Source: Myxococcota bacterium | Lineage (GTDB): Bacteria; Myxococcota_A; UBA796; UBA9615; JAKLKC01 | Assembly (NCBI GenBank): GCA_023150875.1 | Contig: JAKLKC010000052.1 | Span: forward strand, 1-48,432 | Direction of reading: 5' to 3' | DNA: 48,432 nucleotides | Shown: in pieces, positions 28,639 through 39,490 of the stretch | Position numbering within the stretch: position 1 is the first letter of the stretch | Layout: each line of letters opens with the position of its first letter | Notes under the pieces: model-generated | The model's database searches: none | What the model was told of the DNA's origin: nothing | The model's input: only the letters and a program-made list of their open reading frames with translations | Translations under genes and position numbers: made by a program

Positions 28639-30225
28639 TCAGGCCGCCAGCCACTTGCCGATCCGCAGGCGGGTGATCCGCGCCTGCTCCCGGGCGGCGT
28701 TTCCGATCTCCGCCGCCCGGGGGTTGTCCAGCCGCCGCTCCAGGACCTCCAGCACCTGGGCGGCGCTGCGTCCCGACGCGAAGCAGATGAAGATGAAGCC
28801 GAAGGCCTGGAAGTAGCGCTCGTTCAGGTCCCGCAGGCGCTCCAGCACCCCGGCCTCCCCCTCCGCCACCCCCCGCTGCTCCCCCCGGGACCACGCCGCC
28901 GAACGCTCCGTCTGGGAGCCGGCCCTGCGGGCGTCCCCGAGGCGGGGGTGGGCGGCGAAGGCCTGGAGGAAGTCCTGGGGGCCCAGGGACCACCACACCG
29001 AATCGGCGGCGGCGAAGAGGTCGCGGACCGAGGCGAAGGGGCGGCGGGCCAGCATCCCCTCGGCGAACGCCTCCGCCCCGTTGAAGGAGAGGAACAGCGC
29101 CCGCGCCTCGGCCCCGGGCAGGGCGTGGAGGGCGGCCAGCCTCGCCCCCTCGCCGGGGGTGTCCAGGGCGTGGCCGAAGACCCGCAGCCGGTTCACCCCC
29201 CCGTGGGGGAAGATGTGGACCCGCAGGTGGGTGGCGGCGAGGGGCCGCGCCGGCTCCAGGACGTGGCGACGGTGGGGGACCAGGGGCGTGGGCTCCAGGA
29301 GCAGGTCCCAGCCCTCCGGCGCCCGGAGGCGCTGGGGGACGGCATCGGCCCCCAGGGCCTCCTCGTCCAGGCACTCGATCATCGCCGCCTGGGGGGCGTT
29401 GCCCTTGAAGAAGTGGGTGTCCAGATCGATCCGCTCCACCACCCCGCGGCGCCCCAGGCGGATCGCGCACCAGTCGGAGCCGGGGGTCCGGCGGCGCTTC
29501 GTCTCCCAGCCGTCCCCCATGTCCACGCCCCGTCCCGGCAGGAGCAGGTTGGAAGGGGGGCCGAAGAAGGCGTCGCTGGCGGCGGCGATGGTGCCCCCGT
29601 GCTCCACCGCCGCCAGGTCCACCGAGCCCGGCCCCCAGAAGGCGCGGGGATCCGGGTGCACCACCCCGTACACCCGCAGGCGGGCGACGCCGCCGTCGGG
29701 GTGGATGTGCAGGCGGACGTGGGTGACCCGGCCGGTGGGGGCGGCGAGCTCCAGGACGTTCCGGGCGTCGGGGCGGACCGCGGCGCGGGGCAGGACCCGC
29801 AGCCAGGCGGGGCCCCGGGCCGCGAGGGCGGCGTGCTCCCCGGCGTCCCCGGCCACCGGCAGGGCCAGCAGCTCGGCGGCGGTGGCGGTGTGGGGGGCGT
29901 CGATGACGTCCAGGGCCACCGCCTCGGGGGCGTTGCCCTTGAAGTGGGTGGTGTCGCACAGGATCCCGTGGACCGAGCCCGGGGTGCCCAGGCGGACGAT
30001 GGCGGAGTCGTGGCCGGGCTCCCGGCGGCGCTGGGACTCCCAGCCGTCCATCCACTTGCCCCGGTCGGTGTACGCGCCCTCCCTCCACTCCGGGGCGCCG
30101 GGGCGGAGCAGGGCCTCCTTGGGGGCGAAGTAGTCGTCGGTGGCGTGGAGCACGAACCCCCCCGTCGCGTCGGCGGCGAGGTCCACGAGGTGGGCGTAAG
30201 GCTCGGGGGGAGGGAGGTGGGCCAT
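28639..30225 (-). CDS. alc-uraD: Allantoicase fused to OHCU decarboxylase
   Basis: 528 residues. Residues 1 to about 345 are allantoicase (allantoate to ureidoglycolate and urea), with its duplicated jelly-roll halves marked by DSAIVRLGTPGSVHGI/THFKGNAPE and CAIRLGRRGVVERI/THFFKGNAPQ. Residues of about 360-528 are OHCU decarboxylase, showing FLQAFAAHPRLGD, SRGEQRGV and FGFIFICFASGRSA, the family's HPR, EQ and GR motifs. The two steps are not consecutive: decarboxylation makes S-allantoin before allantoinase and allantoicase act. ATG 30225 lies five bases after the allB stop. Fusion ensures equal amounts and replaces a separate uraD gene, which is absent here. Confidence 0.9.
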   Translation of the reverse strand: MAHLPPPEPYAHLVDLAADATGGFVLHATDDYFAPKEALLRPGAPEWREGAYTDRGKWMDGWESQRRREPGHDSAIVRLGTPGSVHGILCDTTHFKGNAPEAVALDVIDAPHTATAAELLALPVAGDAGEHAALAARGPAWLRVLPRAAVRPDARNVLELAAPTGRVTHVRLHIHPDGGVARLRVYGVVHPDPRAFWGPGSVDLAAVEHGGTIAAASDAFFGPPSNLLLPGRGVDMGDGWETKRRRTPGSDWCAIRLGRRGVVERIDLDTHFFKGNAPQAAMIECLDEEALGADAVPQRLRAPEGWDLLLEPTPLVPHRRHVLEPARPLAATHLRVHIFPHGGVNRLRVFGHALDTPGEGARLAALHALPGAEARALFLSFNGAEAFAEGMLARRPFASVRDLFAAADSVWWSLGPQDFLQAFAAHPRLGDARRAGSQTERSAAWSRGEQRGVAEGEAGVLERLRDLNERYFQAFGFIFICFASGRSAAQVLEVLERRLDNPRAAEIGNAAREQARITRLRIGKWLAA

Positions 30226-30230
30226 GGTTC

Positions 30231-31595
30231 CTACCGGGGGGCGGCGACGAAGGAGCCCCGGGGCCGCGCGGAGAGCCCCGACGCGCGGTCCCAGGCGACG
30301 CCACCCCCGACCCAGGTCCTCTCCACCACCCCCCGCAGGACCCGGCCGGCGTAGGGGGTGAGCTTGTGGCGGTGGAGGAGGACCTCGGGGGTCACAGCGA
30401 AGGTGGCGGCATCGTCCCACACCACCAGGTCGGCGTCGAAGCCCGGGGCGATCCGCCCCTTGCGGTGGGCGAGGCCGGCGAGGCGCGCCGGGGCCTCGGC
30501 GTTCCACGACAGCATCCGGGGGACGTCGTGGCCCCGCTCCCGGGCCAGGGTCCACAGGACCGGCAGGCCGAGCTGGAGGGAGGAGATCCCCCCCCACGCG
30601 GCGAGGAAGTCGCCGCTCTCGGGGCGCTTGAGGACGGGGGTGCAGGGGGAGTGGTCCGAGACCACCATGGAGACGGTCCCGGCGCCCAGGCCCTCCCACA
30701 GGCGCTCCCGGTTGGCGGCCTCGCGGATGGGGGGCGCGCACTTGAAGGCGGTGGCGCCGTCGGGCACCTCCTCGGCGGCGAAGGCGAGGTAGTGCAGGCA
30801 GGTCTCGGCGGTCACGGGGACGCCGTCCCGCCGGGCTTCCTCCAGCAGGGGCAGGGCGGAGGCACTGGAGAGGTGGACGACGTGGACCGGCGCCCGGTGC
30901 TTGCGGGACAGCTCCACCAGCAGGGCGACGGCCTCGTCCTCGGCCCGGCGCGGCCGGGAGCGCAGGTAGGTCCCGTAGGCCCGGGGATCCAGGCCCGCGA
31001 CGCCGACCTCGGCCTCGGCCTCGCCGAGGGGGCCCGGGGACTCGGCGTGGACCAGGAGCACCCGCCCCAGGTCCCGCAGCACTGGCAGGGCGGCGTCCAG
31101 CTCGGCGCGGCCGACGTGGGGGAACTCGTCCACCCCCGAGGGGCAGAGGAAGCACTTGCAGCCCGGGACGCCGAAGCGGGCCAGATCGGCGAGATCGTTC
31201 AGGTTTCCCGGGACGAGCCCCCCCCAGAACGCCACGTCCACGTGGACCCGGTCCCGGAGCGCGTCCCGCTTGGCCTCCGCCGCCGCGCGGGAGGTCGTCG
31301 CGGGCACGCAGTTCAGGGGCATGTCGACGACGGTGGTGATCCCGCCCGCGGCGGCGGCGGCGGTGGCGGTGGCGAAGCCCTCCCACTCGGTGCGGCCGGG
31401 CTCGTTGACGTGGACGTGGGCGTCCACGAGGCCCGGGGTGACCAGCAGGTCGCCGGCGTCGTACAGGCGCTCCGGCTCCCCGGCGCGTCCGTGGGGGGCG
31501 ACCTCGGCGATCCGCCCGGCGCGGACGTGGACGGCGGCGGGGACGAGGGCGCCGTCCACCAGCACGCGGCGGGAGCGGACGACGAGGTCGCTCAC
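30231..31595 (-). CDS. allB: Allantoinase
   Basis: 454 residues of the cyclic amidohydrolase superfamily, hydrolysing allantoin to allantoate. Metal ligands are visible: VDAHVHVNEPGRTEWEGF (HxH), CKCFLCPSGVDE (Lys expected to be carboxylated), LLVHAES, HVVHLSSASALP and VVSDHSPCTPVLKR (Asp). The GTG start is inside the GTGA that ends puuD, so the two are coupled. The downstream allantoicase fusion starts five bases later. Cytoplasmic; complete in length compared with E. coli AllB. Confidence 0.94.
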   Translation of the reverse strand: MSDLVVRSRRVLVDGALVPAAVHVRAGRIAEVAPHGRAGEPERLYDAGDLLVTPGLVDAHVHVNEPGRTEWEGFATATAAAAAGGITTVVDMPLNCVPATTSRAAAEAKRDALRDRVHVDVAFWGGLVPGNLNDLADLARFGVPGCKCFLCPSGVDEFPHVGRAELDAALPVLRDLGRVLLVHAESPGPLGEAEAEVGVAGLDPRAYGTYLRSRPRRAEDEAVALLVELSRKHRAPVHVVHLSSASALPLLEEARRDGVPVTAETCLHYLAFAAEEVPDGATAFKCAPPIREAANRERLWEGLGAGTVSMVVSDHSPCTPVLKRPESGDFLAAWGGISSLQLGLPVLWTLARERGHDVPRMLSWNAEAPARLAGLAHRKGRIAPGFDADLVVWDDAATFAVTPEVLLHRHKLTPYAGRVLRGVVERTWVGGGVAWDRASGLSARPRGSFVAAPR

Positions 31596-32854
31596 GGCGA
31601 GGCGGCCTCGGGCGAGGCCATCGGGGCGGCGGCCGGGGGGAGGCGAGCGGGACCGGGGGCGGAGGTGTCGGCCCCCTGGGCGATCCACGCCCCCAGGAGG
31701 GCGCGCTCGGCGTCGGTCATGCCCGTGAGGTTGCCCAGCGGCATGGTCCGGGTCTGGACGGCGCGCACGGCGATCCGGTCGGCGTGGGCGCGGACCTGCT
31801 CGGGGCTGTCCAGGACCACCCCCAGGGGCGGCGCGGCGAAGGCGGGATCCGTGGGCGCCGCCGCGTGGCACGAGACGCACCGGGCCCGGAGGATGGCGTC
31901 GGCGGTGGCGAAGGACACCGGGGGCGAGGCGGCGAGGGCCGCGTCCACCCCGGGGGACGCGGGGACGGCGGGGCGGGTCATGGCCATCACGGCGACGAGG
32001 GCCGCGGCGGTGCCCCCCAGGGCGAGGGGGTGGGAGCGCCCCCTGAAGTTCATGGCGTACTTCACGCCGACCCCCACCACCACCACCAGGGCCAGCACCA
32101 ACCAGGGCGTGGCGTTCCCGTACAGGCTCGGGAAGTGGTTCGACACCATGGTGAACAGCACGGGCAGGGTGAGGTAGTGGTTGTGGACCGAGCGCTGCTT
32201 GGCCCGGGCCCCGTAGGAGGTGTCGACGGGGGTGCCGGCGGCGGTGGAGGCGAGCATGTGCGCCTGGGCGGGGATGATCACGAAGAAGACGTTGCTGGCC
32301 ATGACGGTGCCCAGCAGCGCCCCCACCTGGATGAACGCGGCCCGGGGGGTGAAGACCTGGGTGGACCCCCACGCGACGGCGAGGAGCAGGGCGAGGCCGA
32401 CGGCCCCGAAGGCCCGGGGGTCCCGGATCAGCGGCGTGCGGCACAGGGCGTGGTACACGGCGGTGCCGAGGGCGAGCCCACCCAGCCCGATCCCTACGGC
32501 GGCCCCGTGGGACAAGGGGGAGGCAGCGTCCAGCAGCATCGCCCTCCCGCCGGCCCAGTAAACGATGATCAGGAGCAGGAAGCCGGTGATCCAAGTCGAA
32601 TACGACTCCCACTTGAACCAGGCCAGGTCCGGGGGGATCTCCGTGAGGGAGCGGCGCTTGACCACCTCGTAGAAGCCGCCCCCGTGGGCCATCCGCATCT
32701 CGCCGACGACGTCCCCCTCCAGGGGCCGGCGGGGCTCCGAGAGCCGGGCGTCGAGCCAGATGAACAGGAACGAGTCGCCGATCCACAGGATCCCGGCGAG
32801 CACATGGGCCCACCGCACCGCGAGGTTCGCCCACTCCTGTACCCAGGGATCCAT
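31592..32854 (-). CDS. puuD: Membrane-bound urate hydroxylase with C-terminal cytochrome c domain
   Basis: 420 residues from ATG 32854 (GGGAGA upstream; a GTG four codons earlier is less likely because family members start near MDPW/MEP). About eight hydrophobic helices lead through WANLAVRWAHVLAGILWIGD, AQAHMLASTAAG and RSVHNHYLTLPVLFTMVSNH, all typical of PuuD. The C-terminal part (about residues 320-400) holds a haem c site, ARCVSCHA, with a distal Met likely in TRTMPLGN. It oxidises urate to 5-hydroxyisourate and passes electrons to the respiratory chain rather than O2, so no H2O2 is expected. First gene of the urate operon. Confidence 0.93.
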   Translation of the reverse strand: MDPWVQEWANLAVRWAHVLAGILWIGDSFLFIWLDARLSEPRRPLEGDVVGEMRMAHGGGFYEVVKRRSLTEIPPDLAWFKWESYSTWITGFLLLIIVYWAGGRAMLLDAASPLSHGAAVGIGLGGLALGTAVYHALCRTPLIRDPRAFGAVGLALLLAVAWGSTQVFTPRAAFIQVGALLGTVMASNVFFVIIPAQAHMLASTAAGTPVDTSYGARAKQRSVHNHYLTLPVLFTMVSNHFPSLYGNATPWLVLALVVVVGVGVKYAMNFRGRSHPLALGGTAAALVAVMAMTRPAVPASPGVDAALAASPPVSFATADAILRARCVSCHAAAPTDPAFAAPPLGVVLDSPEQVRAHADRIAVRAVQTRTMPLGNLTGMTDAERALLGAWIAQGADTSAPGPARLPPAAAPMASPEAASP

Positions 32855-32920
32855 GCCCTCTCCCACCCCCGGCGCCGCCGGGCGGGACGACTGTATCGCC
32901 CGCGGGTGGGGGGGACAAGA

Positions 32921-35900
32921 CTACCAGGTGCCCGTCGCCACCCTCACCTCCACCGCGGCCAGGTCGCGGGAGGCGCGTTCCTGGACGCGGGCGAGGCGGG
33001 CGGCGAGGAGGCTGGCGCGGGCGAGCTCGACCTCGACCCAGGTGTTGGAGCCGGCGGAGAACTCGATCTCGGCGAGGCGGAGGTTCTCCTCGGCCAGGGC
33101 CAGCTCCTCGGCGACGGTGGCGAGGGCGCTCTCGCTGCGGGCCAGGCGCTCGTAGGCGTTGCGGACGTCCTCGTCCACCTGCTGGCGCTGCCGCTCCACC
33201 AGCAGGCCGGCCAGGCGGACCTCGGCGCGCTTCTGGCGGAGCTGGGCGAGGCGCATGCCCCCGTCCCACAGGCTCCAGTTCGCCTGGAAGAGCAGCATCC
33301 ACTGGACCGGCTCGGCGGAGAAGCCGGTGTTCTCGGTGGCGTTGACGATGAATCGGCCGTCCACCGAAGGCAGCCAGGTGAAGGCCCGGGCGGTCAGCTC
33401 GTGGCGGACCGCCCGCTCCCTCTGGACCGCCGCCCGCAGGTCGGGGCGGCGGGCCGATGCCTCCTCCAGGGCCCCGGCGACGTCCGGGGGGACCTCGATG
33501 GGCTCGTCCAGGCTCAGGGGGGTCCCGCCGGGGAGGCCCGTCGCCCGGGTGAAGGCCAGGGCCGACTGGGACTCCTGCTGCCGGGCCCCCGCCAGGTCCC
33601 TGTCGGCGCGGCTCAGGGCGAGGCGGGCCTGGAGCAGCGCCCGGGCCGCCACCGATCCCGCCACCACCCGGCGGGAGGCCAGCTCCATCTGGCGCCGGGC
33701 GAGCTCCACCGACTGCTCGGCGATCTGGCGCGCCTCCCGCGCCACCGCCAGGGCGTAGAAGGCCCGCGCCACCGACGCCCGCACCCGGGACCGGGTGGCC
33801 GCCTCGTCGTGGCGGGCCGCGTCGATGGTGCGGTTGGCCGAGAGCAGCGCCGGGAAGGCCGCGCCGTTGAACAGGGGCTGGGTGAGGGTCAGGGAGGCGG
33901 CGCCGTAGGCCTTCTCCTGGATCACCGTGGGCTCCCCGGAGTCCTCGAAGAAGTCCTGGAACTCCTCGGGGATCTGCTCGGTGAAGTCCAGGGTGGTCTC
34001 GTACTGGTTGATGGTGTAGCTGCCCGAGGCGTCGAGGCGCGGGGAGATCGCCGAGAGGGCCTGCCCCTTCAGCGCCTCCATCCCCCGGGCCTGCTCCCGG
34101 GCGATGGCGAACTCCACGTTGTGGCCCTCGGCGGCGGCCAGGGCCTCGGAGAGGGTGAGGGCCGCGACCGGCGCCGGCGCCAGGGCGGCCAGGAGTCCGA
34201 GCCCCGCCCCCAGCACCGCGAGGCCCAGCCCCTTGGCGGCGGCGGGGGCCGCGGCGGCATCCCCGTCGTCGGCCTCGTCGTCCAAGCCCCGGATGGCCCC
34301 GGGGCGGCCCCGCGAGAAGAGGCCCCGGACCCACCTCCCCGTGTCGTCCCAGAGCTTGTAGAGGGTCGGCACCAGCACCAGGGTCAGCACGGTGGCGAAG
34401 GCGAGGCCGAAGATCACCGCCACCGCCATCGGCCCCCACCACTCGGCGCTGGACCCGCCGATCAGCAGACGCGCGCGGCGGAAGTCCACCGAGACCCCCA
34501 CCGCCATGGGCACCAGCCCGAGGATGGTGGTCACCGCCGTCAGCAACACCGGGCGGAAACGGGTGAGCCCCGCCTGGACCAGGGCCTCTTCCAACCCCAC
34601 GCCCCGGGCGCGGAGCTGGTCCACGTAGTCGAGCAGCACGATGGCGTTGTTCACCACCACGCCCGCCAGGGAGATCACCCCGATCCCGGTCATGATCACC
34701 CCGAACGAGGTGCCGGTCAGGATCAGGCCCCAGAGCACCCCCACCAGCGACATGACCACGGAGCTGAGGATGATCACCGGCTGCGAGAACGCGTTGAACT
34801 GGGCGATCAGCACCAGGGAGATCAGGGCGAGGGCGATGAGGAAGGCGCGCCCCAGGAACTCCTGGGCATCCCGCTGCTCGTCGTCGGCGCCCCCGAGTCG
34901 CAGCGCGTAGCCCTGGGGCGGGGCGGCCTTCCCGATGGCATCCTGAACCTGCGCCCGCACGGCATTCTGGTTGAACCCCTGGAGCACGTCCCCCTCGATG
35001 GTGACCACCAGGTCCTGGTCCACGTGGCGGATGGAGCCCGAGCCCGCGGCCAGCTCGTAGGAGGCCACCGCCGAGAGGGGCACGGGGAAGGAGCCGGGGG
35101 CGGTGTCCTCGCGCCCCGGGAAGCGCAGGTCCAGCACCTTCTGGAGGTCCGCCCTCCACTCCGGGGCCAGCTCGACGACGATGTCGTACTCGTCCTCCCC
35201 CTCCCGCAGGACGCTGGCCTTGGTGCCCGCCACCGCCGTGCGGACGGCCCCGGCGACGCCGTTGGTGCTGGCCCCCACCCGCTGCGCCGCGCCGCGGTCG
35301 ATGCGGAAGCGCATCTCGGGGCGACCCACCTTGTAGTCGTCCCGCAGCTCGGTCACCCCGGGGATCGCCGAGAGGTCCCGCCTCGCCTTCGCCGCCAGGG
35401 CCCCCACCTGGTGGAAGTCGTCCCCCGAGACCTCCACGGCGATGGCCGCCCCCACCGGCGGCCCGTTCTGCTCCTGGTCCACGGAGATCTCCGCCCCGGG
35501 GATGTCTGCCACGGCGGCGCGGATCCTCTTGATGGACTCCCGGGAGCTCTCCACCCGCGACTTCCCCCCCTCGGCGGTGTTGTTGCGGTGGGGCAGGAAG
35601 TCCACGGTGATCTGGGCCTGGCTGGACACCGCCTGGGAGCCCCCGAAGCTCCCGCCGCCTCCGCCGACGCCGGACTCGGCCACGTACACGTCCACGTTGG
35701 GGTCCCGGGCGAGGATCCCCTCGATCCGCCGCACCACCCCGTCGGTGGTCTCCAGGTCCATCCCGTCGGGCAGGCGCACGCTGATCACCGCCCGATCGGG
35801 CTCGGTGTCGGGGAAGAACTCCGTGCCGTGGTTGAGGAACCCGTAGGCGACGAAGGTGCCGACGAGGACCCCGAGGGCGCCGCCCAGGGTCGCCTTCGGG

Positions 35901-37438
35901 CGGGCCAGGGTCCAGCGGAGCATCCCCTGGTAGCGGGCCATGAACCGCCCCTGGGGAGGCTCCGCCCCGTCCCGCCTCGTCCGCTTCATGGCCCGGGCGG
36001 TCAGCACCGGCAGGATCCCGATGGCCGCCACCAGGGAGGCGGTGAGCACGATGATCACCGTCTTGGGCAGGTAGCCCATGAACTGGCCCATGATCCCCGT
36101 CCAGAAGACCAGGGGCAGGAAGGCGGCGACCGTGGTGGCGGTGGAGGCGATCACCGCCATCGCCACCTCCCGGGTCCCGTCGATGGAGGCGGCGAAGAGG
36201 TCCTTGCCCTCCTCCATGTGCCGGTAGATGTTCTCGACGATGACGATGGCGTTGTCCACCAGCATCCCGAGGGCGAGGATCAGCGAGAAGAGCACGATCA
36301 TGTTCAGCGTCAGCCCGAGGGCCTCGATGACCATGAAGCTCATCCACATCGCCAGCGGGATGGACAGGGCGACGAAGAGGCTGTTGCGGACGCCCATGAA
36401 GAACAACAGCACGCCCACCACCAGGATCAGGGCGGTGATGATGTTGTTCTCGAGGTCCGCGACCATGTCCTCGATCTGCCGGCTCTGATCGGCCAGCACC
36501 CGGTACTCCACCCCCTCGGGCCACCCCTCCGCCGCCCGGGCGGCCATGGCCTTGGCGTCCCGGGCGATGTCCACGATGCTCGCGCCGGCCCTCTTGGTCA
36601 CCGCCAGGGACACCGCGGGGCGGCCGTTCATGCGCGCGTAGGTCTCGCGGTCCTCGTAGCCGTCCACCACCCGGGCGACGTCCCGGACGAAGACCGGCCG
36701 GTCGCCCACCCTCTTGATGGCGACCTGCTCCACGTCCCTCGCCGCCTCGAACTCCCCCGGGACCCGCAGAAGGAACGACGCGGTTCCCGCGCCGACCTCG
36801 CCCCCGGGGACGTTGACGTTCTCGTTGCCGATGGCCCCGATCACGTCGCTCAGGGAGAGCTCGTAGTGGGAGAGCCGCGTCGGGTCGACCTGGACCCGGA
36901 TCTGCCTCTCGAGCCCCCCCGACACGCGGGCCTCCAGCACCCCGGGGATCTTCGCCACCTCGTCGCCCAGGGCCTCGCCGATCCCCTTGAGGACGTCCTC
37001 GTCCACCTGGCCCGCGATGGTGATGATGAAGATCGGCCAGTCGCTGAACGAGATCTCCCGGATGTCGGGGTCCTCGGCGTCCTCGGGGACCTTGGACTGG
37101 GCGCGGTTGACCCGGTCCCGGACCCGCTGGAGGGCGTCCTCGATCACCACCTCGGGCTCGAACTCCAACGAGACGATGCTGACCCCCTCGGCGGAGGTGG
37201 AGGACATCTTCTTGACGTCCTTGAGGGAGGACAGCTCGTTCTCGATGGGGATGGTGACCAGGGCCTCGACGTCGGCGGGGGAGACGCCGATGTAGGGCGT
37301 GGACACCATCACCACGGGGATCTTCACGTCCGGGGCGGCCTCCCGGGGGAGGCTGACGTAGCTGATGCTGCCGAAGACGAGGATGCTGATCGTGGCGACC
37401 AGCACGGCCGGACCCATTCGGACCAGGGAGGCGATCAT
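32921..37438 (-). CDS. RND efflux permease fused to a TolC-type outer-membrane factor
   Basis: One uninterrupted frame of 1505 residues. Residues 1 to about 1045 are a full-length AcrB/HAE-type RND permease with 12 predicted helices: IASLVRMGPAVLVATISIL (TM1), LGMLVDNAIVIVENIYRHME (proton-relay helix with Asp-Asn) and GVVVNNAIVLLDYVDQLR. After an acidic Ala-rich linker comes a hydrophobic stretch GLGLAVLGAGLGLLAALAP (about 1070-1092) ending APVAALT, like a Sec signal. Residues of about 1095-1505 are a complete TolC-family factor (LTLSEALAAAEGHNVEFAIA; SLWDGGMRLAQLRQKRAEVR; EIEFSAGSNTWVEVELARA). GGAG precedes the ATG. The TolC part would need re-export and probably cleavage to reach the outer membrane. 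Confidence 0.9.
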   Translation of the reverse strand: MIASLVRMGPAVLVATISILVFGSISYVSLPREAAPDVKIPVVMVSTPYIGVSPADVEALVTIPIENELSSLKDVKKMSSTSAEGVSIVSLEFEPEVVIEDALQRVRDRVNRAQSKVPEDAEDPDIREISFSDWPIFIITIAGQVDEDVLKGIGEALGDEVAKIPGVLEARVSGGLERQIRVQVDPTRLSHYELSLSDVIGAIGNENVNVPGGEVGAGTASFLLRVPGEFEAARDVEQVAIKRVGDRPVFVRDVARVVDGYEDRETYARMNGRPAVSLAVTKRAGASIVDIARDAKAMAARAAEGWPEGVEYRVLADQSRQIEDMVADLENNIITALILVVGVLLFFMGVRNSLFVALSIPLAMWMSFMVIEALGLTLNMIVLFSLILALGMLVDNAIVIVENIYRHMEEGKDLFAASIDGTREVAMAVIASTATTVAAFLPLVFWTGIMGQFMGYLPKTVIIVLTASLVAAIGILPVLTARAMKRTRRDGAEPPQGRFMARYQGMLRWTLARPKATLGGALGVLVGTFVAYGFLNHGTEFFPDTEPDRAVISVRLPDGMDLETTDGVVRRIEGILARDPNVDVYVAESGVGGGGGSFGGSQAVSSQAQITVDFLPHRNNTAEGGKSRVESSRESIKRIRAAVADIPGAEISVDQEQNGPPVGAAIAVEVSGDDFHQVGALAAKARRDLSAIPGVTELRDDYKVGRPEMRFRIDRGAAQRVGASTNGVAGAVRTAVAGTKASVLREGEDEYDIVVELAPEWRADLQKVLDLRFPGREDTAPGSFPVPLSAVASYELAAGSGSIRHVDQDLVVTIEGDVLQGFNQNAVRAQVQDAIGKAAPPQGYALRLGGADDEQRDAQEFLGRAFLIALALISLVLIAQFNAFSQPVIILSSVVMSLVGVLWGLILTGTSFGVIMTGIGVISLAGVVVNNAIVLLDYVDQLRARGVGLEEALVQAGLTRFRPVLLTAVTTILGLVPMAVGVSVDFRRARLLIGGSSAEWWGPMAVAVIFGLAFATVLTLVLVPTLYKLWDDTGRWVRGLFSRGRPGAIRGLDDEADDGDAAAAPAAAKGLGLAVLGAGLGLLAALAPAPVAALTLSEALAAAEGHNVEFAIAREQARGMEALKGQALSAISPRLDASGSYTINQYETTLDFTEQIPEEFQDFFEDSGEPTVIQEKAYGAASLTLTQPLFNGAAFPALLSANRTIDAARHDEAATRSRVRASVARAFYALAVAREARQIAEQSVELARRQMELASRRVVAGSVAARALLQARLALSRADRDLAGARQQESQSALAFTRATGLPGGTPLSLDEPIEVPPDVAGALEEASARRPDLRAAVQRERAVRHELTARAFTWLPSVDGRFIVNATENTGFSAEPVQWMLLFQANWSLWDGGMRLAQLRQKRAEVRLAGLLVERQRQQVDEDVRNAYERLARSESALATVAEELALAEENLRLAEIEFSAGSNTWVEVELARASLLAARLARVQERASRDLAAVEVRVATGTW

Positions 37439-37492: not shown

Positions 37493-38605
37493 TCAGCGGG
37501 CCGCGAAGTCCACGCGCCCCTGGGTGCAGCACACCCCCTCCCGGGCGAGGAGCAGGCGGTCGCCGTCGGCGAGCTCCCGGTGGCCGGTGGTGACCACCCT
37601 CTCGCCGGGGGCGAGGCCGCCGGTGACGATCACCTGGTCGTGGACGACCTGGCCGAGGGTGAGGGGACGCCACCGCGCCACCCCCTGCTCCTCCACGAAG
37701 ACGCCGATCCCGTCCAGGCGGGTCACCAGCACGTCCTGGGGCAGGACCACCGCCTGCTCCGCCAGGGTGCGGGCCAGGCGGACGTTGGCGATCATGCCCG
37801 GGAGCAGCCGCCTGCCCGGGTTCGACACCTCGATCTCCGCCTCGAAGGCGCGGGTCTTGAGGTCCCCGGCGGGGCTGACGTGGACGACCTTCCCGTCCAG
37901 CAGCTCGGGGATGGCCTCGGTGGTGACCTTGGCGTCCATGCCCTCCACGAGGGCCACCATGTCCCGGTCGGCGACGGACACCTTCACCCGCACCGGCTGG
38001 AGCTGGACCAGGCGGGCGACCCTGGCCCCGGGGGGCGCGATCTCGCCGACCTCCACGTCCACGCTGGCCACGGTGCCGGCGAAGGGCGCCGAGACCACCG
38101 AGCGGGCCAGGGCCAGCTCCGCCTGCTCGTGGCCGGCCCGGGCGATCCGGGCCCGGATCTCCGCCGCCTGGAGCTGGGCGGGGGAGATCCCGTCCCCCAC
38201 CGCCCGGGCCCTCTCCAGCTCGGCCTCGGCCAGGGCGAGGTCGGCGGCGGCCTGCTCCCGCCGGATCTGGTAGGAGGCGGTGTCGACCCGGGCGATGGCC
38301 TGCCCCTTCTTCACCGCCTGGCCGGGCCGCACCAGCACCGCCTCCACGGGACCGCCCGCGGGGGAGCCCAGGATCGCGTCCCGGATCCCCTCGACCTCGC
38401 CGGGCAGGGATACGTCGATCCGGGCCGGAGTCGCCTCGATCCGCGCCACCTCCACCCGGGTGCGGGGGGCCTCCGGGGCGGTGGCGGCGGCGGCGGCGGT
38501 TGGAGGGGCACCTTCCCCCCCGGCGCCGGCGGGGGCGCAGGCGGAGAGGGCGAGGAGGGTGGCCAGCAGGGACCAGGGGAGGGGGATCCGCGAACGCAGG
38601 GTCAT
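37493..38605 (-). CDS. RND efflux membrane-fusion lipoprotein (HlyD/AcrA family)
   Basis: A 370-residue periplasmic adaptor with lipoprotein signal LLATLLALSAC (Cys about residue 23). The beta-barrel/lipoyl halves (VEAVLVRPGQAVKKGQAIAR and SVVSAPFAGTVASVDVEVGE) flank an alpha-hairpin rich in Ala, Glu and Arg (about residues 110-165). The C-terminal part RWRPLTLGQVVHDQVIVTGG matches the membrane-proximal domain. The ATG overlaps the TetR stop (ATGA), and the RND-TolC gene begins 54 bases after the stop, so the unit carries regulator, adaptor and pump-channel in one transcript. Confidence 0.92.
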   Translation of the reverse strand: MTLRSRIPLPWSLLATLLALSACAPAGAGGEGAPPTAAAAATAPEAPRTRVEVARIEATPARIDVSLPGEVEGIRDAILGSPAGGPVEAVLVRPGQAVKKGQAIARVDTASYQIRREQAAADLALAEAELERARAVGDGISPAQLQAAEIRARIARAGHEQAELALARSVVSAPFAGTVASVDVEVGEIAPPGARVARLVQLQPVRVKVSVADRDMVALVEGMDAKVTTEAIPELLDGKVVHVSPAGDLKTRAFEAEIEVSNPGRRLLPGMIANVRLARTLAEQAVVLPQDVLVTRLDGIGVFVEEQGVARWRPLTLGQVVHDQVIVTGGLAPGERVVTTGHRELADGDRLLLAREGVCCTQGRVDFAAR

Positions 38606-39210
38606 CGAGCGACTCCACGGAGGAGGATGTCGACCAGCCGCTCGGGCAGGTCGTCGGGGAAGGGAACGCCGGTGAGCCAGAGGAGAACCCGGAGGTCCAC
38701 CATGCCGATCAGGGCCAGGAGGGCGTCGTCGACGTCCACGTCGGCGCGGAGCTCGCCGCCCTCCCCGGCGCCCTCCAGGATCCGCCGCATCAAGTGGGAC
38801 GTCCGCGCCTGCATCGGCTGGCAGTCGAAGACGGGAGCCCCCTCCTCGGGCCGGGTGTGCAGGCGGACGAGGAGGCGGACGGCCACCGGGTGCTCGGTGA
38901 CGAAGCCGAACCAGCGCCGGACCATGGCGACCAGGCGCTCCCGCAGCGTGCCCGGGTGGGAGAGGCCCTCTTCGAGGATCGCGTCCATGGCGCGGCCGTA
39001 CCGCTCCACCACCGCCAGGAACAGGGCCTCCTTGCTCGGGAACCAGTAGTACAGCGCCGGCTTGGTGCACCCCACGGCGAGGGCGACCTCGCGCATCGAC
39101 GTCGCGGCGTAGCCCCGGTCCGCGAACAGGGGCGCCGCCGCGTCGAGGACGCGGGTACGCAGGTCCTGGGTCGTGTCCTGGACGGAGGGGTGGGTCGATG
39201 CCGGGGTCAC
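38602..39210 (-). CDS. TetR/AcrR-family transcriptional regulator of the efflux operon
   Basis: 202 residues from GTG 39210 (AGGAG seven bases upstream). The TetR helix-turn-helix DAAAPLFADRGYAATSMREV followed by ALAVGCTKPALYYWFPSKEA occupies about residues 19-60. The C-terminal ligand domain (about 65-202) contains RLHTRPEEGAPVFDC. It is first in the operon and overlaps the adaptor gene by ATGA. A palindromic candidate operator sits 11 bases upstream of its start and over the promoter, so it probably represses itself and the pump until an efflux substrate binds. The ligand is unknown. Confidence 0.92.
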   Translation of the reverse strand: MTPASTHPSVQDTTQDLRTRVLDAAAPLFADRGYAATSMREVALAVGCTKPALYYWFPSKEALFLAVVERYGRAMDAILEEGLSHPGTLRERLVAMVRRWFGFVTEHPVAVRLLVRLHTRPEEGAPVFDCQPMQARTSHLMRRILEGAGEGGELRADVDVDDALLALIGMVDLRVLLWLTGVPFPDDLPERLVDILLRGVAR

Positions 39211-39220
39211 GGGGCCGCTC

Positions 39221-39261
39221 CTGACCGACCGGTAGGTAAGACCTCTTCCGGAACTTGTCAA
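39221..39261 (-). promoter_or_regulatory. Promoter with palindromic TetR operator for the efflux operon
   Basis: On the minus strand TTGACA (39261-39256) is a perfect -35 box. Sixteen to seventeen bases later, TTACCT or TACCTA could serve as a weak -10. The -10 overlaps a 20-base near-palindrome at 39221-39240, CTGACCGACCGGTAGGTAAG, in which 8 of 10 pairs are complementary and the core is ACCGGT. Size and symmetry match TetR/AcrR operators. The regulator start is 11 bases downstream. The match is visible; the binding is inferred. Confidence 0.65.
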
Positions 39262-39490
39262 CGGGCGTCCCCCTCGATTCGTTCCGACCCTCCTCCCGGG
39301 GTCGGGAACGACCGAGACCTCGTGGGTCCCGCGGGGCCCGGCGGGGACGGGGTCGCGGCGTCCCCCGGGACGGAGCGGCCCCTTGCCGCCCCCGCCGGGG
39401 GAGGTATAGCCCCGGATGTACCACGCCACGGCTCGGCGGAGCGCCCGGGGGGTGGGGCCCGGGCAGTCCCGGGCGGGAGGGGGTTCTCGT

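Follow-up and report, generated by a model that had tools for sequence, protein, structure and literature searches.

A single gene on the reverse strand of the window (the whole 48,432-nucleotide stretch of DNA that was analysed) joins an RND permease to a TolC-type outer-membrane factor, and its product is, as judged from sequence, a real, conserved and convergently evolved pre-protein of a tripartite pump. The frame is continuous and is conserved among relatives, the linker between its two halves resembles a signal peptide, the channel half has a TolC fold, and the gene lies in an operon with an adaptor gene (Table 1). The usual teaching is that a tripartite RND pump comprises three separate proteins; here two of these parts, bound for different membranes, would be made as one pre-protein.

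Table 1. Features of the fusion gene and its operon (window coordinates)
Feature	Coordinates	Strand	Basis
TolC-type outer-membrane factor half, predicted mature residues 1094-1505	32924..34159	-	OEP x2, AlphaFold2, Foldseek
V1091-A1092-A1093 codons, predicted signal peptidase I site, cut before L1094	34160..34168	-	sequence; small-x-small in 30/30
Linker, residues 1030-1093, predicted internal signal peptide	34160..34351	-	sequence, hydropathy, layout common to 30 fused relatives
RND permease half, residues 1-1029	34352..37438	-	ACR_tran, 12 predicted transmembrane helices, cytoplasmic C-terminus
Membrane fusion (periplasmic adaptor) lipoprotein gene	37493..38605	-	Pfam HlyD_D23, HlyD_3; lipobox LSAC
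TetR-family regulator, start uncertain	38602..39429	-	Pfam TetR_N

Pump and channel in one reading frame

The gene (32921-37438, reverse strand) is a single 1505-codon frame that begins with an ATG at 37438 and ends with a TAG at 32921-32923. In agreement with the earlier note, which had described pump and channel as continuous in one polypeptide, Pfam places an RND permease and then a TolC-type outer-membrane factor in the 1505-amino-acid protein without an intervening stop. ACR_tran covers residues 11-1029 (E = 1.1e-208) and is followed by two OEP copies, one at residues ~1096-1301 (window 33536-34153) and the other, the better match, at residues 1323-1503. The genome is very GC-rich and contains many long spurious frames, one of which, of 2421 amino acids, is present on the opposite strand, so an open frame by itself counts for little. 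We accept the fusion despite this because both halves are real genes in one frame, GC3 is steady and the join is conserved. GC3 is 0.92-1.00 in each 50-codon block of the gene and 0.97 across the junction and linker, and this unbroken course indicates that the two halves were not brought together by a frameshift.

Among 71 genomes of the window's class, the protein has 33 matches at E ≤ 1e-150. The open frame continues past the permease with no stop in 28 of these, and one match (L026, from G044) ends at a contig end. The remaining four (31-32% identical, family f7) each consist of a pump gene and an adjoining channel gene separated by one TAG. In L030-L032 pump and channel genes meet in one frame as ...TAG ATG..., one substitution from fusion, which offers an easy route in either direction. 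The junction could be read directly in approximately 26 distinct main-clade sequences from separate genomes, all of them fused, as are all intact members of the window's class above 50% identity in which the junction was read; no full-length copy in the main fused clade has a break in the frame at the junction. As a draft assembly, the genome is spread over 180 contigs, and a lost stop or a frameshift introduced by assembly or sequencing could have joined two genes. Against this, the same continuous frame recurs in those main-clade sequences and in low-GC isolates of another phylum, and GC3 is unbroken. We consider such an error to be extremely improbable, and an assembly artefact is ruled out by the relatives and GC3. 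The earlier note had raised the prospects of a frameshift or of a split in all relatives and had proposed a survey of homologues for conserved fusion; close relatives turned out to be fused in frame in many independent genomes.

The permease half has the marks of an AcrB-type RND permease, namely a full-length ACR_tran match and 12 RND segments, and its nearest solved sequences are MexK, MdtB and ZneA (E = 1e-80 to 1e-99). It falls below the curated cut-offs of both the CusA/CzcA heavy-metal RND subfamily (TIGR00914, 422 vs 701.45 bits) and the multidrug RND subfamily NF033617 (602 vs 1250 bits). Read by eye, TM4 is LVDNAIVIVEN and TM10 is VVVNNAIVLLD (residues 383-415 and 925-940). The AcrB proton-relay residues are D407, D408 and K940; by the same reading by eye, the first TM4 Asp is kept and the positions of D408 and K940 are Asn. 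This suggests that the proton relay of the window permease may differ from that of AcrB.

The channel half contains two OEP repeats, four strands, long paired helices and a TolC-like fold, as expected for a TolC-type channel. AlphaFold2 modelling of residues 1068-1505 gave the channel a mean pLDDT of 91, the signal segment being the one low-confidence part, and Foldseek matched the channel model to TolC, VceC, CusC and OprM (TM 0.70-0.77, E to 7e-20). In three fused proteins (L021, L024 and L063) the chain is longer by approximately 80 residues, inserted early in the channel half, in the interval from OEP position 76 to 79 of the query channel.

The linker as an internal signal peptide

Hydropathy analysis reveals the 12 RND helices and then an extra hydrophobic segment at residues 1071-1089 (Kyte-Doolittle mean 2.02 over 19 residues). 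Past helix 12 the window reads WDDTGRWVRGLFSRGRPGAIRGLDDEADDGDAAAAPAAAK GLGLAVLGAGLGLLAALAPAPVAA, followed across the predicted cut by LTLSEAL. The linker consists, in order, of a basic stretch (WVRGLFSRGRPGAIRG), an acidic Ala-rich stretch, K1069, the hydrophobic segment and a c-region ending in V-A-A. Its hydrophobic core and small residues at -3 and -1 are those of a signal peptidase I substrate, as far as sequence features go. The APVAA string that the earlier note took as the site is present at residues 1089-1093, and its best -3/-1 reading is the narrower V1091-A1092-A1093, with L1094 beginning the channel. The 25 residues before the core hold two basic and six acidic residues in the window, whose n-region is less basic than those of its relatives because the acidic DDEADDGD precedes a single K1069. 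At 64 residues the window linker is also the longest in the main clade, owing to an acidic Ala-rich stretch (GLDDEADDGDAAAAPAAA, window 34259-34300) that is not seen in relatives.

Although linker sequences diverge widely (for instance KVLLAGLLLGGLSSRALA followed by AP, and AKLVPVFLLAALAAGQAHA followed by QE), their layout does not. The best 14-residue stretch beside the channel has a Kyte-Doolittle mean of 1.64-2.54 in 30 of 30 fused proteins; no such stretch was found in 27 unfused RND tails, where the mean hydropathy reaches at most 0.97. A small-x-small motif directly precedes the channel in all 30. An A-x-A lies within nine residues of the channel in 23 of the 30, vs 13.2 expected from composition-keeping shuffles (p ~6e-4, a value that overstates independence because the sequences are related by descent); the window is counted here through APA, its likelier site being V-A-A, which is not an A-x-A. 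The distance from hydrophobic core to channel is 3-12 residues in 28 of 30, and the two exceptions arise from a misplaced motif start. A lipobox, with Cys right after the signal as in OprM and CusC (NodT type), was sought at the junction of the window and of 30 fused relatives, and no Cys was found there; a lipoprotein-type junction is excluded on this ground.

The stand-alone channel relatives have an N-terminal signal at exactly the same position (L082, MSKLAPVALILSIAASDAVAAPVTLEEA; L030, MLLSLLAPVAFALTLDEA), which points to the linker being the old signal peptide of the channel, retained in the chain. Translation of the channel might instead also begin separately at a start codon within the linker, the fusion being a by-product of overlapping translation. 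The window does have a GTG 19 codons and a TTG 42 codons before the channel, and the TAG ATG arrangement in the frame of L030-L032 would fit such a start. Neither of the window codons is preceded by a Shine-Dalgarno-like 5/6 match, however, and in six of the 30 fused genes this region lacks any in-frame ATG, GTG or TTG. Start positions in it are not conserved, and we regard internal initiation as very unlikely. Because the hydrophobic stretch and small-x-small motif occur in every fused protein and in none of the unfused tails, and because those six genes lack a start codon, the linker is best read as a retained, conserved internal signal peptide; the earlier note, too, had proposed an internal signal sequence.

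A further reading is that the join stays uncut, the segment serving as a true thirteenth helix that leaves pump and channel covalently linked or holds the channel half at the inner membrane. In a 19-residue scan, the hydrophobic segment does read as transmembrane in the window and in several relatives. The conserved small-x-small c-regions and the ordinary signal peptides at the same place in split relatives argue against this, and so does geometry. Known channels have a 100-angstrom periplasmic barrel, and their helix H1 is part of the equatorial ring at its mid-height (PMC8277102). In our model, TolC helix H1 starts at residue 1096, 12 residues past the end of the signal helix, and the 3-12 residues between core and channel in nearly all fused proteins are too short to reach from the inner membrane to that ring. 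With approximately 10 residues available, an uncut chain could not extend from the inner membrane to H1, past the periplasmic part of the permease and the adaptor, so a conventional complex would, on these published dimensions, need a cut chain. We judge a permanently joined protein of this kind to be rather unlikely.

Operon and genome context

The operon order in the window is tetR, adaptor lipoprotein, fusion. The adaptor gene lies 54 bases upstream of the fusion gene, and the regulator stop overlaps the adaptor ATG (ATGA). Every full-length fused locus of the main clade has an adaptor relative immediately upstream. Adaptor and fusion together are thus two genes predicted to encode a complete tripartite pump, its transport function being read from the genes. 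A search for promoter or terminator consensus inside the fusion gene gave nothing above chance. Genes for signal peptidase I and for POTRA/BamA-like proteins are found in the same genome. A defence function was also considered and excluded, with no PADLOC hit. Purine breakdown genes follow the efflux operon (28639-32866, reverse strand); they include a membrane protein with a urate oxidase N-domain and, at its C-terminus, a CxxCH motif (31592-32866, reverse strand) and, beyond it, amidohydrolase/allantoicase-like frames that were read by eye.

Independent origins of the fusion

The window's own genome contains a second fusion (contig C174, 1535-5890; L075) of 1451 amino acids, with ACR_tran and OEP in one frame, a signal-like linker (RRRRPARAAAAAVALLAALLPWPARA) and a relative, L077. 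On a quick permease tree of the same class, the fusion label needs four changes: a gain in the main clade, its loss in an 11-row Polyangia clade, and further gains in L075/L077 and, separately, in L076/L078. The channel tree agrees in that three kinds of fused channel are separate. The C174/L077 and L076/L078 proteins share the ACR_tran and OEP layout and signal-like linker of the window protein, but their permeases are only ~30% identical to it and occupy separate positions in both trees. At the resolution of a quick tree, these two pairs appear to be fusions independent of the main clade.

The unfused Polyangia pumps nest inside the fused clade on the permease tree, and their channels, which are encoded upstream or downstream of the pump, fall outside the fused channels and belong to another lineage. 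Taken together on the quick tree, this nesting and these outside channels suggest that the fused channel was lost and another used, not that the fusion simply split. A few channels that stand alone (L082-L084 and L030-L032) group within the fused channels, which indicates that channel halves have also moved or become detached.

In Bacteroidota, CusA/CzcA-type RND proteins of ~1450 amino acids likewise consist of ACR_tran and then two OEP copies, an example being WP_013768944.1 on Haliscomenobacter plasmid pHALHY01. Their linker is hydrophobic and signal-like and ends in small-x-small (KGRIKKVASVSVLLLLLFGLSSPLNAQ), with a hydropathy of 2.19-2.72 in seven aligned fusions. At least 40 plasmid records contain a fusion of this type. 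No plasmid record was found to carry the window's own channel half, and the best 5000 plasmid matches to the window protein included no fused full-length one. Bacteroidota fusions such as L107:1522-5877 are annotated only as 'CusA/CzcA family', with the channel half unnamed. Since the RND subfamily differs, the Bacteroidota fusion probably had an independent origin. The fusion thus appears to have arisen at least four times in two phyla, with three origins in the class and a fourth in Bacteroidota, and the earlier note's description of it as rare is only partly right.

Proposed maturation of the pre-protein

We propose that the gene product is a pre-protein of an RND tripartite pump. The 12-helix permease would be made first, with both termini in the cytoplasm. 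After a basic cytoplasmic tail, the hydrophobic segment would act as an internal signal peptide, entering the Sec channel N-in/C-out and carrying the downstream chain into the periplasm, where signal peptidase I would cut after residue 1093 (between VAA and LTL). The released channel chain would pass to the BAM machinery and form a trimer in the outer membrane; the permease, still carrying the spent signal as a thirteenth hydrophobic segment at its C-terminus, would trimerise in the inner membrane, and the upstream-encoded lipoprotein adaptor would link the two. The outcome would be an ordinary adaptor-pump-channel complex from two genes, with pump and channel made 1:1, the ratio that the complex uses. 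Routing through Sec, cleavage, assembly by BAM and whatever benefit a fixed ratio may bring are what we infer. We consider this account as a whole to be likely; that signal peptidase I cuts the linker, so that a normal 12-helix pump is left and the channel is set free, is very probably correct. Quite unlikely, in our estimate, is a junction that is cut slowly, partially, under control or never, such that pump and channel form a single covalent chain for a time or for good and the uncut chain guides or paces assembly of the trans-envelope complex. The earlier note had called the precursor self-processing, a term that does not hold, as Pfam reveals no protease domain in the protein and host signal peptidase I is the expected enzyme. 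The fixed pump-to-channel ratio that it foresaw stands in the sense of equimolar synthesis, which follows from the gene structure.

The repeated origins seem to share one solution, in which the signal peptide of the channel is kept inside the chain, and they would clearly exemplify a bacterial envelope pre-protein that is presumably separated into its parts by signal peptidase. The fusion lets the need for 1:1, side-by-side synthesis of pump and channel be tested directly, and the unfused pump of the Polyangia clade is relevant to whether selection favours a fixed ratio. It is also a natural design for equimolar pump-channel expression. As the Bacteroidota cases illustrate, automatic annotation hides such RND-channel fusions.

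Comparison with known systems

With ACR_tran and OEP in one frame and a signal-like linker between them, the window protein is an RND-channel fusion. Natural RND-channel fusions and their processing are not described in the literature searched, an absence that is not proof. The Bacteroidota fusions share with the window the single chain, the signal-like linker and an adjoining adaptor gene, but they belong to the heavy-metal CusA/CzcA subfamily, have the adaptor gene downstream and occur in another phylum. MexAB-OprM, AcrAB-TolC and MdtABC have the same three parts with the same folds; in these systems pump and channel are separate genes, whereas in the window they would be made as one pre-protein. 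Bradyrhizobium FbcH is a cytochrome b/c1 pre-protein that signal peptidase cuts at an internal signal. Its proteins are unrelated to those of the window, but there too a membrane protein and an exported protein are made in one chain and parted at an internal signal, as we propose for the pump and channel described here.
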